A stretch of DNA of 64,000 nt. Source: Parvularcula sp. IMCC14364. GTDB taxonomy: Bacteria > Pseudomonadota > Alphaproteobacteria > Caulobacterales > Parvularculaceae. Shown here piece after piece: positions 9,293 to 35,808 of the stretch. Numbering within the stretch: the stretch's first letter is position 1; each line of letters begins with the position of its first letter. The notes below the pieces were generated by a model. It saw nothing but the letters and a program-made list of their open reading frames with translations. It did not search any database and had not been told where the DNA came from. A program made the position numbers and the translations under genes. The stretch is taken from assembly GCF_030758415.1 (NCBI RefSeq), contig NZ_CP132334.1, forward strand, positions 2,368,001 through 2,432,000, given 5' to 3'.

Positions 9293-12200
9293 ATGAGCGT
9301 CAATGACGAGACTGACTTCCCGGCAGCCGAGGATGACAGCAATGTGCATAGTCTTCGCACCCCCGTGGAAGGAACAGAAAAGAACCCCGAGCACACTGTG
9401 GGCAATTTCACCAGACCATCAGAACGCTGGAACCGTCGAGCGCAACTGGTACAGTTCGGTTTTCGCGTCGCAGCCTTTGCGTTTCTTGGCTGTTTCCTGT
9501 TTGGCTGGCCGCTGGGCACGAGCCTTGCGGAATACAACCAGACCGGCCTGTTCCGCTTCCGTCTTGGCTTCACCATGCCGGTTTTCTTTTATATGGTCAC
9601 GATCCCGATACTGATTTACGTGATCGGACATATTTTGTCGCTTGGCTTGCGCATGGCAGGGAAAGCTGAAGATCTGGAATTCTCAGCCGTGAGCCTGTTG
9701 AAACCGGATGTCAGCGCCGCACAGAATATCAGGATCGTTGGCACCGCCGTTCGTGGACAGATCGACTCCCTGAATGTGCATCTGGATGAAGCCCTTGGCA
9801 AACTTGCTTCTGTCGAGAGCATGATCCGGCAACAGATCAAGGCAATCGACAGCGCTGCGGAAGCGATGCAAAGCGCGTCACATGACAACACAGACAAGGT
9901 TGCCAGTGAGCGCCAGCAACTGATGCAACTGACGGAGAAGTTGAACCTCGAGGCGGAGAAATTTGCCGAAGCGATTGCCGAAAAGGCGCGCCTTGGCCTT
10001 GAGTCCTCTGAGACTGCCAATTCCCGCATCGCCGGGGCCGAAATTGATCTCGAAAACAGACTGACCAGACTGGAAGATACGGCCGCCAAAGCCCTGACAG
10101 CTTTTGAAAGCCTCGCAGACACTATGCAGGAACAGGAAAGTGCTGTCAGCCGCAGCACCGCCCGCCTCGACAGCCTGGCGTCAGCCGCTGACGGCAAGAC
10201 CAGTTATCTGCGGCACCTGTTACAGGAAAATGCCGAGAACATACTTGAAGCCCAGAAACGGCTGGAGGCAGACGGCCAACGGCTGGAGCAGTTGATCCAG
10301 GACCAGAAAGACCGCGCAGAGCGTCTGGCTGAAACCGTGGCCGCGCAGGCCGAACACAACCCGGAGCTGGAAAAAGCCTTTGAGAGCCTCTCCATGGTGG
10401 AGCAAATGATCCGCCAGCAGGTGGAAACAATCAACACTGCCGCCAGCACGATCCAGACAGCCTCCAGCGAAAGCGCCAGCCGCATTGAGACTGAACGCGA
10501 TCAGATGATTCAGATGACCGAACAGCTTAATCAGGAAGCGGAGCGCTTTGCTGAGTCGATTTCCCGAAACGCACATTCCGGCCTTGAAACACGCCTTGGG
10601 GATCTGGAAACGGTTGCGCAGAATGCGCTGAGCGCTTTTGAAAAACTTGCCGGATCCATTGAAGCGCAGGAACAGGCGGTCACGCAAAGCAGTGCCCGTC
10701 TCGAAACACTGACAACACAAACCAGTGAAAAGGCCGGCCATCTCGCAGCAATGCTTGGTGAGAATGTAACAGCCATCGCCCAGACTCAGGAAGGCCTGAA
10801 CGCTGAAAACGCGAAACTGGAACAGATGATTACCGACCAGCGCGCGCGGGTTGAACAACTGGCGACCTCCATCAATGAGCAGACCGAAAACAACCCTGCG
10901 CTCTCAGGTGCGATTGACAGCCTCGTCTCCGTCGAAACCATGCTCCGTGAACAGATCACAGCCGTTAGCACAACATCCGGGCTGCTACAGGATGCAACCG
11001 GCAACAACGCAGAACGCCTTGTGCAAGAGCGCGAGCAGCTGATGTCCCTGATGCAGGAGCTGAATGAAGAGGCGGGCCGCTTTGCCGATACCATTTCAGA
11101 AAATGCACGCACTAGCGCCGATATGGCCTCTGACGATTCGCGCTTTGCAGAGGCGCAGGCAAAGCTTACAACACGCATCGAAACGCTTGAGGCGATCTCT
11201 TCGAGAGCTCTGGGTGCCTTTGATAACCTGACCACAGCACTGGCCGAGAAAGAAGGCATCATCAGCGAGAGCGCACAGAGGCTGGACACCATCTCTTCCC
11301 GGGCCGGAGAGCAGACAGATATGATCCGTCAGATGCTTGATGATAACACTCAGGTCATGACCTCGGTGCAGGAACGCCTGCAAGCCGAAGGACAACGCCT
11401 TGAAGCCATCATCGTCAGCCAGCAGGAGCGGGCTGATACATTGCTGACCGCCCTCTCGGAAAAAACAGGCACAGGTCTGTTTTCTACCGACGCACTGGAA
11501 AAACTGGACACGGTTGAGCAGATGATCCGGCAACAGATCACGGCGATGGAACATGCAGCAACATCCGTGCAGACAAGTTCTGGCGAAGCCGCAACCCGGA
11601 TTGCTGAAGAGCGGTCACAGCTAATCTCCCTGACAGAAAGCCTCAACAAGGAAGCGGACAGGCTGGTTCAGGCCATCACAGAACAGTCCGGGCTTGACCG
11701 GACTGATTCTGATATCTCGTTGGAGGCCTTTGGCAAGGCGGAGCAGGCTATTCAGTCGCGGCTGGAGACCCTCGAACAGAAAGCAGAACAAACCCTGAGT
11801 GCTTTTTCTACAGTGTCTGAGCAACTTTCCTCACAGGAGAATGCGGTATCCACCAGCGCCGAGCGGATTGGCAAAGTGAAAACAGACACAGCGCAACAAT
11901 CAGCTGAAATGGCCAAACTGATCGAAGCCAATACGTCTGTCCTGTCAGAGGCTCAGTCAAGATTGGCAGCAGAGAGTCAGAAACTTGAAGACATGATTCA
12001 GGACCAGCGAGAGCGTGCAGAGCGCCTAGCATCAGCCATTGCAGAGCAGACAGCACGCATGAGCGAACTGGAACAGACGCAGGACAGCCGGGCAAGACCG
12101 ATGCGCCGCCATGACGACCAGCCTGCCCGCAAGCCTTTGTCCATCAGCAGTATTCTCGCATTGGGGGATGATACAGGCAAGACTGCCGATGCGCCGATGC

Positions 12201-23680: not shown

Positions 23681-24055
23681 ATGAGTATGATGCAAAGCGC
23701 GCAAACAACCGTTATTGATACAGAGCAACTGCAAACACTTGCGGCCGCTGCAGGGGTTGATGCCGCCAATGCGATCCTTGATGCTTTCTGGAGTTCCTGT
23801 GAAGATCTGCTCGTTCTGTTGAGAGACAGCTTCCGGGATCAAAACTTCGATGAAATGTCAAAAGCTGCTCACGCGTTGAAAGGCTCAGCAATGAACCTTG
23901 GCGCCGTTCAGCTCGCTGAACGGGCAAAGACGATTGAAAGCGGGGCGCGTGAGCGTAATCTCGAAACCGTGCAGCAAGCGTTTCTAAAGCTTGCTGGCGA
24001 TATCTCTCAGTCGCGCGGGGCCTTTCAGGATCTCATGCAATCCATCGCTGCCTGA
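23681..24055 (+). CDS. single-domain histidine phosphotransfer (Hpt) protein
   Basis: 124 residues, all helical. The Hpt signature AAHALKGSAMNLGA places the phosphorylated His at residue 64, with the Gly and Leu positions expected for four-helix Hpt proteins. It should relay phosphate between receivers in a multi-step phosphorelay. No kinase is adjacent. The nearest candidate partners in the window are the kinase/receiver cluster at 31.7-35.5 kb. The ATG has only a weak ribosome site (CAGG). A hairpin with a T run overlaps its stop codon. Confidence 0.88.
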   Translation: MSMMQSAQTTVIDTEQLQTLAAAAGVDAANAILDAFWSSCEDLLVLLRDSFRDQNFDEMSKAAHALKGSAMNLGAVQLAERAKTIESGARERNLETVQQAFLKLAGDISQSRGAFQDLMQSIAA

Positions 24056-31676: not shown

Positions 31677-34013
31677 ATGGACGGATCAACAACCGCTTTT
31701 TTTTCTGCCGGAGCAGAAAACTCAGGCATTGATACCCTGAATCCCGCGGCGGTGCTGGAAAGCCTGCCCTGCGAGGCACTGGTGGTTGATGCTAACAGCG
31801 GGGATGTGTTGTTCACGAATGCACAGGCACGAACCAATCTGGGATACACGGCTGCAGAAGCAGAACAGCTTTCCCTGCGGGCCATCAGCAATGATCTGTT
31901 TGAGGCACTCTCTGCCTGCAAAATCGCCCCTGATGCCGGACAGGCAGCAGCCATGCCAGAAATGGACGCGGACTATCACCGCAAGGATGGCTCTGTTTAT
32001 AGCGCAGAGGTCCGTCTGCATATCGAATCTTCCGGGAACAAGACGCTGCTTGTCTGTTTCGCGTGCGAGAAAGTACGTCCCGGTGAACACACCGAACAGC
32101 TAAGACGGTACGCCCAGTTCAACCAGTCACTCCTCGATTCATCTGAAGCCGGGATCCTGAGCCTCACGCCCGTCCGGAATGAGCAAGGCGATGTCGTTGA
32201 TTACAGATTTGTCGCCGCAAATGAAGCCAATGCCCTTTTAACCGGGCGCACACCTGAGCAGTTACTCGGCAAAACATTGCTGGAAGAATTTCCAGGCAAT
32301 GAAGCCGAGGGGCTTTATGACATCTATCATCAAGTCGCGACGACGGGCCGGGCTGCGGAATTTGAAGTCCATTACAATCAGGACGACGTCAAGGACTGGT
32401 TCCGCATCAAGGCGGTGCAGACCGGTGAAGACGGCGTCACGATAAACTTCTCCCAAATCACACCCGCAAAGCGCTACGAGCTTGCCCTGAAGGAACTGCA
32501 CCTTCTTTCTCTTGATACAGACCTTGATCTTGATATGTTCGCACAGGGCATTCTTGAGATTGGGCGGAAAATTTTTGATTGCCCGTTTGGCATCTATGCC
32601 CGCAATGACGGCGAAACCTATGAGCTTGTTGAGACAATCGGCAATCTGCCCGTAAGCTCAGGAGACACGCTACCGTTGAGCGAAACAGTTTGCGCCGCGG
32701 TGGTGAGAGAAAAGGCACCGGTGGCGCTGCATGATTTGAAATCAGTACACGAGAAGTTTTCACGTGCCGGGTTCGGTTGCTATATCGGCGCGCCCCTGAT
32801 GACTGAGACGCGGGTCAACGGAACGCTCTGTTTTCTGGGGCCTGAAGCAAAAAACAGCCCCTTTTCTGACAGTGATCTGGATAATGCTAGCATGATGGCA
32901 GATATATTGTCTGCACGGATCAAACTCATCGAATCAAAAAATGCGCTGCGCAACAATCGGGACGAGTTGCAGATTCTGTTCAACAACATGCCCGCACGCA
33001 TCTGGTACAAGGATGACAGAAATACGATCCTGCACGCTAACACATCTGCTGCAAAGTCAATGGGTTTTGAAGACCCGGAAGACCTGGAAAATGCTGATAC
33101 CTACAAACTTTTCCCGGAAATGGCTGCAAAGTATCATGAAGATGATCTCGCCGTCATCAACAGCAACATGCCTCTGCGCAATATTGTGGAATCCTACACG
33201 CCCTTACATGGCGATCAGGGCTGGGTCAGCACCGATAAAATTCCGCTCGAGGTTCCCTCCGGCGAAAAGAGGCTGCTTGTTGTTGCCAGTGACATAACAA
33301 CCCTGAAACAACGCGAAGAACAGTTGGAAAAACTCAACAAGAACCTGCAGGAATTTGCTTTTGTCGCTGCCCACGACCTGCAGGCACCATTGCGGCAAAC
33401 CGCCATGTTCTCGCAATTACTACATGACGAAATCGCTGATTCAGCTGTATCCGAAGACGCGCTTGAGACTTTGAAAAATCTCGAAACGTCCGTACAGAAC
33501 ATGCGCTCCATGGTGAAAAACCTGTATCACCTGTTCAGTCTCGACACACAACAGATCAAACTTCTCCCTGTGGATATTGCCTCAGTTGTCAAAAGAGCCA
33601 GTGCATCACTGGAAGAGGTGCTGGACGATAGCCAGGCCGAAATTTTATTTGACGCATTACCAACTGTGCTGGGGGCAGAAGACCTGCTCGCACAGCTGTT
33701 CCAGAACCTGTTCGCCAATGCCGTGAAATATGCCGGCGCTGACCGCCCTGTGATCAAGATCAGTTCCCTGCAGAACCCTGTCAAACTTGTGCATGAAATC
33801 CGTATACAGGATAATGGCGTTGGTATTCCGCAAGAGTTTCATGAAAAGGTTTTCGAACCTTTCAAACGCCTGCATCACAAAGAAGAAGTTGAGGGTTCAG
33901 GCATTGGACTGGCGCTTTGTCGCAGGATTGCAAATCTGCACAAAGGCGCATTGCGCATAGACCCGAAATATCAGGACGGATGCTGTTTCGTTCTTGAAGT
34001 ACCCTATTATTGA
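31677..34013 (+). CDS. cytosolic PAS/PAS/GAF/PAS sensor histidine kinase
   Basis: 778 residues, no membrane helix. PAS-like domains at ~20-125 and ~130-265, a GAF domain ~275-420 (FDCPFGIYARNDGETYELVET), another PAS ~430-535 (NNMPARIWYKDDRNTILHANT), then DHp with His566 in AAHDLQAPLRQ. The ATPase part has N-box NLFANAVKYA, G1 DNGVGIP and G2 GSGIGLALCRRI, all intact. The kinase core resembles those of bacteriophytochromes. ATG at 31677 has a poor ribosome site (AAAGACGA); a TTG at 31647 is the alternative. The receiver gene 11 bases downstream is its likely partner. Confidence 0.9.
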   Translation: MDGSTTAFFSAGAENSGIDTLNPAAVLESLPCEALVVDANSGDVLFTNAQARTNLGYTAAEAEQLSLRAISNDLFEALSACKIAPDAGQAAAMPEMDADYHRKDGSVYSAEVRLHIESSGNKTLLVCFACEKVRPGEHTEQLRRYAQFNQSLLDSSEAGILSLTPVRNEQGDVVDYRFVAANEANALLTGRTPEQLLGKTLLEEFPGNEAEGLYDIYHQVATTGRAAEFEVHYNQDDVKDWFRIKAVQTGEDGVTINFSQITPAKRYELALKELHLLSLDTDLDLDMFAQGILEIGRKIFDCPFGIYARNDGETYELVETIGNLPVSSGDTLPLSETVCAAVVREKAPVALHDLKSVHEKFSRAGFGCYIGAPLMTETRVNGTLCFLGPEAKNSPFSDSDLDNASMMADILSARIKLIESKNALRNNRDELQILFNNMPARIWYKDDRNTILHANTSAAKSMGFEDPEDLENADTYKLFPEMAAKYHEDDLAVINSNMPLRNIVESYTPLHGDQGWVSTDKIPLEVPSGEKRLLVVASDITTLKQREEQLEKLNKNLQEFAFVAAHDLQAPLRQTAMFSQLLHDEIADSAVSEDALETLKNLETSVQNMRSMVKNLYHLFSLDTQQIKLLPVDIASVVKRASASLEEVLDDSQAEILFDALPTVLGAEDLLAQLFQNLFANAVKYAGADRPVIKISSLQNPVKLVHEIRIQDNGVGIPQEFHEKVFEPFKRLHHKEEVEGSGIGLALCRRIANLHKGALRIDPKYQDGCCFVLEVPYY

Positions 34014-34024
34014 AGGACGCAGAT

Positions 34025-34435
34025 ATGCCCAGAAGAATTCTGCTCGTGGAAGATGACCCGATTGATTTGCGTTTTGTCCAGAAATACCTGGAAGCCGATG
34101 CGGACAATGATGACTTGATCATAGACACTGCCCGTAATGGGCAGGAAGCGCTCGACGTGTTGAAAGAGAACCATTCCCATTGCTTCATTATCCTTGATCT
34201 GAATATGCCCGGTATGGATGGTCGGCAGTTACTGACGGCGCTCAAGTCTGATGAAGAATTGAAGAAAATTCCTGCGATTGTCCTTTCAACATCTGACAGT
34301 CAGACAGATATTGAGGAGTGCTATGCCAGACATGCAAATGCCTATTTGGTCAAGCCTGACAGCCCGGGCGGTTACAAGCAAACAGTCCTGAGGCTGAAAG
34401 AATTCTGGCTGGATGAAGTCAGGCTGACGGGTTAG
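34025..34435 (+). CDS. CheY-like single-domain response regulator (Rcp1-like)
   Basis: 136 residues consisting of one receiver domain. The acidic pair (ILLVEDDPIDLRFVQKYL), phosphorylated Asp58 in IILDLNMPGMDG, the Thr/Ser switch in IVLSTSDS and Lys in YLVKPDS are all present. The sequence type matches the Rcp1 regulators paired with phytochrome-like kinases. ATG at 34025 with GAAGGA ahead; the open frame begins with TTG at 34010, overlapping the kinase stop. Confidence 0.92.
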   Translation: MPRRILLVEDDPIDLRFVQKYLEADADNDDLIIDTARNGQEALDVLKENHSHCFIILDLNMPGMDGRQLLTALKSDEELKKIPAIVLSTSDSQTDIEECYARHANAYLVKPDSPGGYKQTVLRLKEFWLDEVRLTG

Positions 34436-34451
34436 GCACCCGGTAAGTTCC

Positions 34452-35465
34452 TCACAGAATAACCGTCACCATCTGATCGGTACCAGATGTCGTGATCTGC
34501 ACGTTTTCCGGCTTGAGGCCAAGAATGGCAGCCCCCAGGCGCAATGAAGAGTGTGATTCCTGCCCGATTGAGCCTGCCGGTGTGGCATCACTGAAAAAGA
34601 TGGAAGCATCCGGCAAAATCTGTCTGTCAAAATAAAGCATCAGCTTGACGCCTTCGCCATGGCAGGCCGCGAAAAAGAGCAACTGGCTGTCGGCAGGACA
34701 GGCCCGCAACGCGCCCTCCACAAAATGTTGAAATCCGAGTCTGGCCAGCGTCTCATCGCCCGCCTGAGCGTACCAGGTATTATCGCATTCCATTGAAAAA
34801 CGGATTTTCTTGTTACGCGCAATATCGCGCGCTCTGCTCTGCATACGCCGCAAAATAGTGTGGAGCGCAATTTCAGCAGTACCTGACAGATCACTGGTGA
34901 GGTAGGCACGGATGGCTTCGCTTGTCTCCAGTAATTCCTGAACAAAATCAGCGGTCCGGTTGTGGCCGTTGTCTTTCATGATCTCATGCAGAACTGACAG
35001 CCCGTCAGTCAGATAGTTCAGTGAAACTGCCGGTGCTTTACCCGGTTCTGGTGTCTCAGTTCCCTTTGCGGCAGCAGTTTCAACAGGCTGAGGTGTCGCC
35101 TGATGGCGTGCACTGATATTGTAGAAAATCTGCTTTAGCACAGCCGGCGAAATGTCTTCCTTGTCAATAACTGCATCAGCGCCAACGCGCGTCGCATGCA
35201 ATCGCAATTCACCGGCATTTCCCCCGGTAATAAAGACAATAGGTGCATCTGTATATTGCCGCACTCTGGCAATATCATCTTCAATGGACACAGATTCAGG
35301 TCGCAGGACATCCAGCAGGATGCAGTCTGCAGGCCGCGCCGCCAGCGTCTCGGAGAGGTCTTCAAGAGACTTGCTGACGGTTACATCAAGGGTGTCGTTG
35401 GTTTTTGCGGCACGCTTCAGCACACTCGCGTCAAGTTCGTCATCTTCAATATAATGAATATGCAT
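34452..35465 (-). CDS. receiver domain fused to a kinase-like domain without catalytic motifs
   Basis: 337 residues. Residues 1-120 are a complete receiver: acidic cluster Glu7-Asp8-Asp9, phospho-acceptor Asp52, Thr80, Lys102. After a Pro/Ala-rich linker, ~150-337 have the layout of a histidine-kinase dimerisation helix pair and ATPase fold (LGFQHFVEGALRACP where the N-box should be; SSLRLGAAILGL where the G2 region should be), but Asn and the Gly-rich motifs are missing. This is the arrangement of ChpT-like phosphotransferases and pseudokinases. It converges with the kinase/receiver pair, 16 bases between stops, and may regulate them. Confidence 0.72.
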   Translation of the reverse strand: MHIHYIEDDELDASVLKRAAKTNDTLDVTVSKSLEDLSETLAARPADCILLDVLRPESVSIEDDIARVRQYTDAPIVFITGGNAGELRLHATRVGADAVIDKEDISPAVLKQIFYNISARHQATPQPVETAAAKGTETPEPGKAPAVSLNYLTDGLSVLHEIMKDNGHNRTADFVQELLETSEAIRAYLTSDLSGTAEIALHTILRRMQSRARDIARNKKIRFSMECDNTWYAQAGDETLARLGFQHFVEGALRACPADSQLLFFAACHGEGVKLMLYFDRQILPDASIFFSDATPAGSIGQESHSSLRLGAAILGLKPENVQITTSGTDQMVTVIL

Positions 35466-35571: not shown

Positions 35572-35808
35572 TCAGACTGTTTCAAGTGATGGTTCAACTT
35601 CCACCACATTTTCGATAATAACTTCTTCGTAACTGACCTTGAGCCCTTCGATCAGGCCGGCAATGCCGTGACGATGTTCGGGGTCCATCTCGACACATGC
35701 CCGGATAAGCCGCATCATGGCGTCGTCCTGCATACCGCACAGCAGCGCGAGCACGGTCGGGTCATCGTTGATTTCATTTACAAGTGACTGAATGACGTCA
35801 GGCTTCAT
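35572..35808 (-). CDS. small acidic protein of unknown function
   Basis: 78 residues, Glu/Asp-rich, probably two or three helices, no signal or membrane segment. Starts MKPDVIQSLVNEINDDPTVL; AGGGA lies ahead of the ATG. Same strand as the receiver-pseudokinase gene 106 bases downstream, so it may share its transcript. No family recognised. Confidence 0.5.
   Translation of the reverse strand: MKPDVIQSLVNEINDDPTVLALLCGMQDDAMMRLIRACVEMDPEHRHGIAGLIEGLKVSYEEVIIENVVEVEPSLETV

Follow-up and report, generated by a model that had tools for sequence, protein, structure and literature searches.

A putative receiver-gated pseudokinase encoded beside a PAS/GAF kinase and an Rcp1-like regulator in Parvularcula sp. 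IMCC14364

Organization of the locus

The window analysed here is a stretch of 64,000 nucleotides from the genome of Parvularcula sp. IMCC14364 (contig NZ_CP132334.1, positions 2,368,001 to 2,432,000); all coordinates below refer to this window. An earlier note, made from the sequence alone, had described a signalling module composed of a kinase, a single-domain regulator and a third protein in which a receiver is fused to a kinase-like fold. All three genes are real open reading frames, with the coordinates and spacing given in that note. The third protein, the fusion of a receiver to a dead kinase at 34452-35465 on the minus strand, is referred to by the working name RECX. The features of the locus are as follows:

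31677..34013, plus strand: soluble sensor histidine kinase, 778 aa (PAS, PAS, GAF, PAS_4, HisKA, HATPase_c)
34025..34435, plus strand: Rcp1-like single-domain response regulator, 136 aa, starting 11 bases past the kinase stop
34452..35465, minus strand: RECX, a receiver with a catalytically dead DHp-CA part (pseudo-histidine kinase), 337 aa, convergent with the regulator
35100..35465, minus strand: RECX receiver domain, residues 1-122 (Glu7, Asp8, Asp52, Thr80, Lys102)
34896..35021, minus strand: RECX two-helix DHp-like hairpin, residues 149-190, helix 1 without a conserved His
34458..34880, minus strand: RECX CA-like (Bergerat) domain, residues 196-336, with the N, G1 and G2 boxes lost
35572..35808, minus strand: small gene, 78 aa, upstream of RECX and co-directional with it

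The regulator starts at the ATG at position 34025, the listed frame opening at a TTG at 34010, and kinase and regulator probably form one operon. The convergent stop codons of the regulator and RECX are separated by 16 bases, a gap reported earlier and confirmed here from the coordinates of the open reading frames. Its length is not conserved, being 57 bases in locus L040 and 53 in L041. Promoter and terminator scans gave predictions at about shuffle level (4 versus 4.0 in shuffles and 7 versus 4.6, sd 2.4, respectively), none of them inside the 16-base gap. The small gene upstream of RECX had been overlooked in the earlier note; a Pfam search with its 78-aa product matched no family.

The kinase and the Rcp1-like regulator

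The kinase contains three PAS regions, one GAF domain, HisKA and HATPase_c, the HisKA match (23.8 bits) falling just below the Pfam cut-off of 26.9. Its phosphoacceptor, as judged by motif, is His566 within AAHDLQAPLR. No hydrophobic stretch resembling a membrane helix was found in the kinase, the highest 19-residue Kyte-Doolittle mean being 1.21; the Pfam domains and this hydropathy maximum agree with the previous description of a soluble PAS/GAF kinase. In the PDB, the catalytic core is closest to 8f71 and to bacteriophytochromes, while the top-ranked solved relatives of the regulator are 6xvu, 8avv (bacteriophytochrome-regulator fusion), RcpA, RcpB and Rcp1. RcpA, RcpB and Rcp1 are response regulators of phytochromes, and their place among the best solved relatives justifies the designation 'Rcp1-like'. 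Cph1-Rcp1 and bacteriophytochrome-regulator pairs resemble the kinase-regulator pair described here in catalytic core and regulator, but the window kinase has no PHY domain by Pfam and its sensors are PAS and GAF domains.

RECX combines an intact receiver with a degenerate kinase fold

The receiver of RECX scores 30.1 bits against Pfam Response_reg, for which the cut-off is 30.2. Asp8, Asp52 and Lys102 are kept in all 15 RECX homologues and residue 80 is Thr or Ser in every one of them; judging by these residues, the receiver is apparently complete and phosphorylatable.

Beyond residue 110, none of the 15 homologues matches any of the H-, N-, G1- or G2-box patterns. In 11 linked or comparison kinases the same patterns were matched in 11 (H box), 11 (G1), nine (G2) and six (N) cases, the N-box pattern being a weak test since it is matched in only 6/11 kinases. 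The alignment of RECX shows the ATP boxes replaced and the lid region short, and wherever the alignment is unambiguous the H-box position lacks a His in every homologue. Histidines do occur within DHp helix 1 (residues 149-165), namely His160 in 4/15 and His154 in 1/15 homologues, neither of them at the H-box position. Without a phosphoacceptor His or ATP boxes, RECX would not be an active kinase of the Rec-HK kind. Unusual phosphorylation on one of the partly conserved histidines (His202 in 11/15, His247 in 13/15, or His160) is possible, as far as the alignment goes.

The predicted structure of RECX, a monomer model with a mean pLDDT of 80.7 and a pTM of 0.54, consists of the receiver, DHp-like helices and a CA-like domain, the linker between receiver and DHp having a pLDDT below 50. 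A DHp hairpin and a CA domain were also present in the model of a RECX member only 23% identical, for which the same alignment was used (five versions, pLDDT 56.4 to 76.0). In a Foldseek search of the PDB, LvrB (8vc9) ranked first (E 1.1e-12), DivL (4q20) next (E 5.6e-10) and RetS (6dk7) tenth (E 2.1e-9). The order REC-DHp-CA is seen in both the model and the Foldseek matches, although the match to LvrB holds per domain, the domains being placed differently (TM-score 0.33, rmsd 26). Structural alignment with VIA-align says little on the C-terminal half, because the rows listed cover mainly the receiver; the LvrB row spans the whole model with an rmsd of 18.8. The earlier reading of this half as a kinase-like fold without ATP-binding motifs is borne out by the DHp/CA-like model together with the missing box patterns. 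Furthermore, divergence of the dead half is as slow as that of the functional kinase core: in comparisons of the window with its two relatives, pN is 0.098-0.108 for the dead domain and 0.109-0.120 for the live core, against 0.425-0.461 for the linker of RECX.

Comparison with known systems

RetS of Pseudomonas, which shares a kinase-like region with RECX, is a sensor in the membrane and has different input domains. RetS has been investigated for its interaction with another kinase, GacS; for RECX, pairing with a partner kinase is conjectural.

LvrB of Leptospira is described as the prototype receiver-controlled histidine kinase (Rec-HK, or 'hybrid response regulator'; PMC13269768). LvrB is switched by phosphorylation of its receiver, the switch being a coiled coil that lies between its REC and DHp parts, and it is an active kinase with His161 that phosphorylates LvrC and acts below the kinase LvrA (PMC13269768). 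Like RECX, LvrB consists of REC-DHp-CA and nothing else, and we count its position below another kinase as a further likeness. LvrB keeps His161 and activity, whereas in the RECX homologues both the His and the ATP boxes are gone, and where the same account places a coiled coil RECX has a linker modelled with low confidence.

DivL of Caulobacter crescentus, like RECX, has a DHp-CA part without the phosphoacceptor His. According to its description (PMC4211667), this pseudo-histidine kinase reads DivK~P by binding and keeps the other kinase motifs, Tyr replacing His. As described there, it has PAS sensors, no receiver and retained N, G1, F and G2 boxes, whereas in RECX the receiver is the sole input and the N, G1 and G2 patterns are absent.

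RECX and phosphotransfer proteins

It had been suggested that the third protein resembles a receiver-ChpT fusion. In hhalign comparisons, the C-terminal profile of RECX fitted kinases far better (score 48.2, probability 89.5; best of 100 shuffles 21.6) than ChpT (21.1, probability 1.8; best of 100 shuffles 19.3). The ChpT profile was built from 14 sequences, L133 being left out as it has no ChpT frame; when the kinase comparison was run with one Rec-HK row included and one RECX fewer, the score was 39.3 (shuffles at most 26.3). At E<=1, 13 RECX members matched six Pfam families between them, and HPTransfase (PF10090) was not one of these; the genome encodes a separate ChpT elsewhere. The suggestion of a ChpT fusion is thus disfavoured by a DHp without a conserved His, the lack of a PF10090 match and the weak profile score. 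Because 21.1 exceeds all 100 shuffles, the dead half of RECX is likely to be distantly related to ChpT via common DHp-CA ancestry.

The dimeric phosphotransferases ChpT, Spo0B and PhyT act through a phosphoacceptor His. They are degenerate DHp-CA proteins like RECX and are themselves described as degenerate kinases in PMC5898713; they differ in that RECX has no conserved phosphoacceptor His and only a weak ChpT profile match. The earlier proposal that RECX passes phosphate on does not fit the absence of an H-box His, and a ChpT-like relay role is unlikely; draining of phosphate through the intact receiver is possible.

An orphan Hpt gene had been tentatively assigned to the same relay. The reading frame (23681-24055) is real, with a Pfam Hpt match of 49.9 bits, and it occurs in 53 of 60 family genomes and in all six genus genomes, including the three without the module. 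The Hpt thus does not track the module, and its membership is not supported; cross-talk between the two is possible.

Distribution of RECX

A profile search identified RECX in 12 of 398 genomes of the order, including that of Parvularcula sp. IMCC14364. A kinase adjoins RECX in 13 of the 15 loci, L045 and L035 being the exceptions; loci from the same genus do not count as independent cases. When the arrangement was surveyed, as the earlier note had advised, the recurrence of RECX beside kinases held, but spacing varies and, beside other kinases, three layouts other than the convergent one occur. Within the genus, kinase, regulator and RECX are found together in three of six genomes, own included. 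In the other three, the syntenic place holds none of the three genes, a search for the kinase at E 1e-45, with five candidates scored in each genome, gave no match, and genome-wide matches to RECX do not go beyond the receiver level. The three genes therefore behave as one module, present or absent as a block across the six genomes, as had been supposed.

Kinase orthologues (at least 491 bits) are present in six of 200 order genomes, own included, and five of these six carry RECX, which occurs in seven of the same 200. Genome G165 has the kinase orthologue and no RECX. The orthologous HK-RR loci of G110, G165 and G160 hold an extra small receiver-like third gene instead of RECX; receiver models match the G110 and G165 copies and none matches the G160 copy. 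Receiver-only relatives of RECX were found in L186 (7451-7870) and, more weakly, in G160.

No full-length relative was found outside the order in samples of 385 class genomes, where the profile matched own and G418 only, and 398 phylum genomes, where it matched own only; at most five candidates were scored per genome, so that distant members could escape. The G418 match (L039) falls on the receiver of an intact Rec-HK that adjoins a kinase. Viral contigs yielded no RECX relative. A contig scan, limited in coverage by its seeding with two short receiver patterns, gave 98 of 189 stretches encoding a relative. Among the best 80 of these 98, 12 (L040-L051) were accepted as true relatives and 68 were dropped, their matches ending by query residue 143 (by 158 in L077); L051 was matched only in its receiver and counted as full-length on the strength of the profile search. 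RECX represents a small, little noticed but conserved family. Kinases under receiver control (LvrB) have been described, and so, separately, have pseudo-histidine kinases (DivL, RetS); among the literature matches listed, none dealt with a receiver joined to a dead histidine kinase of the RECX family.

Proposed role of RECX and alternative explanations

We consider it moderately probable that RECX is a pseudokinase gated by its receiver, related to kinases of the LvrB type but catalytically dead, and that it acts by binding a kinase or regulator rather than by phosphotransfer. This reading draws on features seen in sequence and model: the architecture, the intact receiver, motif loss in 15/15 homologues, the retained fold, slow divergence and repeated linkage to kinases. 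We infer that the PAS/GAF kinase would phosphorylate two receivers, those of the Rcp1-like regulator and of RECX, and that phosphorylation of Asp52 would change the DHp-CA part. The latter might then pair with the DHp of the kinase, exerting feedback on it, or dock the regulator in its phosphorylated form, in the manner of DivL with DivK~P; the choice of partner is a guess.

Alternatively, RECX could be a phosphate sink, its receiver competing with the regulator for kinase phosphate and its C-terminal half being structural ballast. The complete receivers, the two receivers beside one kinase, the receiver-like third genes of G110, G165 and G160 and the receiver-only relatives in L186 and G160 all speak for a sink. 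For that task, however, a receiver alone would suffice, yet at 23% identity the fold of the dead domain is preserved, and the domain diverges no faster than the live kinase core; we regard this explanation as unlikely. It is rather unlikely, too, that RECX is an unrelated regulator lying convergent with the pair by chance, as its opposite strand, the variable spacing, the two loci without an adjacent kinase and the RECX-free kinase orthologue of G165 might suggest; kinase adjacency in 13/15 loci and four layouts, and presence or absence as a block in the genus, argue against coincidence.

Two further explanations appear highly improbable. A phosphotransferase like ChpT, Spo0B or PhyT, moving phosphate from receiver to receiver through the C-terminal half, would share the broad fold class, the degenerate kinase ancestry described in PMC5898713 and the slight excess of the ChpT profile score over shuffles, but it is contradicted by the scattered histidines of DHp helix 1, the far better kinase profile, the missing HPTransfase match and the separate ChpT. 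Similarly, the CA fold retained in the model would be consistent with a cryptic kinase that still binds ATP or phosphorylates unconventionally, but the N, G1 and G2 patterns are missing in all 15 homologues, and in the alignment other residues stand in place of the boxes and the lid region is short.

Several observations weigh against the pseudokinase reading: RECX lies on the strand opposite to the kinase, making co-expression conjectural, two loci are without an adjacent kinase, LvrB is matched only per domain, and some histidines are partly conserved.

With its receiver always intact and its kinase always dead, the RECX family would amount to a naturally occurring separation-of-function variant of LvrB, revealing what receiver phosphorylation does through the kinase fold once catalysis is gone. 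The compact set of kinase, regulator and pseudokinase would provide a test of kinase-pairing feedback in relatives of Caulobacter. More tentatively, RECX may be the founding member of a class of pseudokinases switched by phosphorylation: once the partner kinase has phosphorylated its receiver, its dead DHp-CA part would act as a brake by forming mixed dimers with that kinase or by caging the phosphorylated regulator. Such a brake, if true, would be a built-in, reversible two-component feedback needing neither transcription nor phosphotransfer. A further partner might be the product of the 78-aa gene, which is 67-68% identical in the two relatives carrying the module.

Gain and loss of the signalling module

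The module in the window consists of a kinase, a regulator and, on the opposite strand, RECX (a receiver fused to a catalytically dead DHp-CA half); a previously unreported ORF lies upstream of RECX.

31677-34013, + strand: sensor kinase with domains PAS, PAS, GAF, PAS, HisKA and HATPase_c
34025-34435, + strand: Rcp1-like regulator
34452-35465, - strand: RECX (337 aa)
35572-35808, - strand: 78-aa ORF

The kinase carries the motifs HDLQAPL, NLFANAVK, DNGVGI and GSGIGL, and no membrane-like stretch was present in its sequence. The regulator, whose best solved relatives are phytochrome regulators, starts with an ATG at 34025, 11 bases after the kinase stop codon; its own stop codon is 16 bases from that of RECX, the corresponding gap being 57 bases at locus L040 and 53 at L041 in related genomes.

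The three genes are gained or lost as a unit within the genus. They occupy the syntenic place in three of the six genus genomes, including that of the window, and in G074 the flanking genes are retained and all three are absent, as is a nearby gene which we take to be DUF481-like. None of the three adjoins the mreB region in G064 or G159, and searches of G074, G064 and G159 returned neither a match to the window kinase at an E-value of 1e-45 nor a RECX match beyond the receiver. The 78-aa gene, 67–68% identical in the two relatives carrying the module, is present in four of 60 family genomes (own included), the fourth copy, in G074, being unlinked and weaker; its product has no Pfam match. The Hpt at 23681 had been proposed in the earlier note as a possible member of the same relay, an assignment not supported here: its occurrence does not follow that of the module.

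Among 200 genomes of the order, kinase orthologues (at least 491 bits) are found in six (own, G114, G164, G165, G110 and G160) and RECX in seven (own, G114, G164, G160, G110, G157 and G028, the last counted as full length by profile search). Five of the six genomes with the kinase orthologue thus also encode RECX, at a separate locus in G110 and G160; members of the same genus are not independent observations in these counts. In G157 and G028 the kinase adjoining RECX is of the other type. The orthologous kinase-regulator pairs of three genomes have a small receiver-like gene as the third gene:

L154 6983-7390: G110
L155 7082-7492: G165
L156 7035-7481: G160

Receiver models match those of G110 and G165; none matches that of G160 at 1e-6.

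Sequence and predicted fold of RECX

Asp8, Asp52, Arg55, Pro56 and Lys102 are unvarying in all 15 distinct RECX homologues; residue 7 is Glu in 14 and Asp in one, and residue 80 is Thr in 14 and Ser in one. Past residue 110, none of the 15 matches the H, N, G1 or G2 box patterns (our own, built on the consensus motifs), which are matched by 11, 6, 11 and 9, respectively, of 11 comparison kinases. In a joint alignment of 14 RECX proteins (L185 left out), the H-box position is occupied by one of four residues, Glu, Ala, Met and Asp, wherever the alignment is clear; a three-residue insert renders it ambiguous in the three Aquisalinus proteins, with no His in the ambiguous stretch. The second N-box Asn is replaced by Gly in 13/15 proteins and by Ala in two. 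Outside the H-box position, histidine is found at residue 160 in 4 of the 15 proteins, at 177 in 8, at 202 in 11 and at 247 in 13. Pfam matched the receiver in all 13 members scanned, and HisKA, HATPase or HPTransfase in none.

To which family the C-terminal half belongs was assessed with hhalign, using 15 RECX halves, 11 kinase cores and 14 ChpT sequences, with 100 column shuffles each. RECX scored 48.2 against kinases (probability 89.5; shuffles up to 21.6) versus 21.1 against ChpT (probability 1.8; shuffles up to 19.3), and kinases against ChpT scored 54.9 (probability 93.6; shuffles up to 23.0). By these scores the half, likened to ChpT in the earlier note, is a degenerate kinase core with only distant ChpT kinship.

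The AlphaFold model of RECX (mean pLDDT 80.7, pTM 0.54) comprises the receiver, a low-confidence linker (123–145), DHp-like helices (149–165 and 169–190) and a CA-like alpha/beta domain (196–336). A near-identical element order was predicted for the L051 member (23% identity; pLDDT 76.0, best of five), modelled from the same alignment. In Foldseek searches against the PDB, LvrB, the prototype receiver-controlled histidine kinase (Rec-HK), ranked first (six chains, E 1.1e-12), the low TM-score of 0.33 being due to differently placed domains; DivL followed (E 5.6e-10), then RetS and ordinary kinases.

Distribution and linkage to kinases

Of 398 genomes in the order, 12 carry RECX, the window's own among them; one of the 12, G770, matched at positions 3–236. 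The carriers span five of 59 genera and three families, those named being Aquisalinus MAGs, Ponticaulis koreensis and relatives, and Hyphomonadaceae MAGs. No full-length RECX was found outside the order in searches that scored up to five candidates in each genome. One Aquisalinus MAG has a second, 38% identical copy (L045 8492-9535), adjoined by a presumably LemA-like gene. A 139-aa receiver-only relative (L186 7451-7870, + strand) occurs in G615 of the Ponticaulis group, where we read the neighbouring genes as hybrid kinase, receiver and Hpt-like.

In 13 of 15 loci RECX has a histidine kinase either directly beside it or at a distance of one to two genes, which we judge to exceed chance; none adjoins RECX at L045 or L035. 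Four layouts were distinguished.

(i) window, L040, L041: RECX convergent with the kinase-regulator pair
(ii) L042 (8948-13883), with equivalents in L043, L044, L046-L049: RECX divergent from a sensor-less kinase of 241-272 aa
(iii) L050, L051: CheB-CheR-PAS kinase, regulator, 182-185 aa gene and RECX, co-directional
(iv) L185: RECX convergent with kinase, regulator and intact Rec-HK (10401-11489, - strand, between the pair and RECX), and downstream of another kinase and a single receiver

In all seven loci of layout (ii), RECX is followed on its other side by genes for FliJ (named by Pfam), FliI and CtrA (both by NCBIfam above cut-off), hinting at motility or cell-cycle control. The L185 cluster thus holds live and dead Rec-HK versions together. 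The 182-185 aa gene of layout (iii) (L050 3989-4606; L051 9256-9804, equal to L037 7981-8529) encodes a C-terminal CxxC motif and matches no Pfam family above cut-off.

Possible function of RECX

In LvrB, phosphorylation of the receiver is reported to bring about a coiled coil and to release the CA domains (PMC13269768); the catalytically dead kinase core of DivL reads phosphorylated DivK (PMC4211667). RECX resembles LvrB in its input, a receiver, and its output would most simply be like that of DivL, a dead kinase core reading a phosphorylated partner. The most economical reading is that RECX is a phosphorylation-switched binding protein, which would receive phosphate from the adjacent kinase and grip either that kinase or the regulator.

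The main rival is a phosphate sink, in which RECX would drain phosphate. Comparison of the window with L040/L041 gives a pN of 0.056–0.067 for the receiver, 0.425–0.461 for the linker and 0.098–0.108 for the dead domain, versus 0.109–0.120 for the live kinase core; values are given without ratios because synonymous proportions (0.61–0.82) are near saturation. Selection thus maintains the dead domain. Passage of phosphate onward through RECX, also raised in the earlier note, is unlikely.
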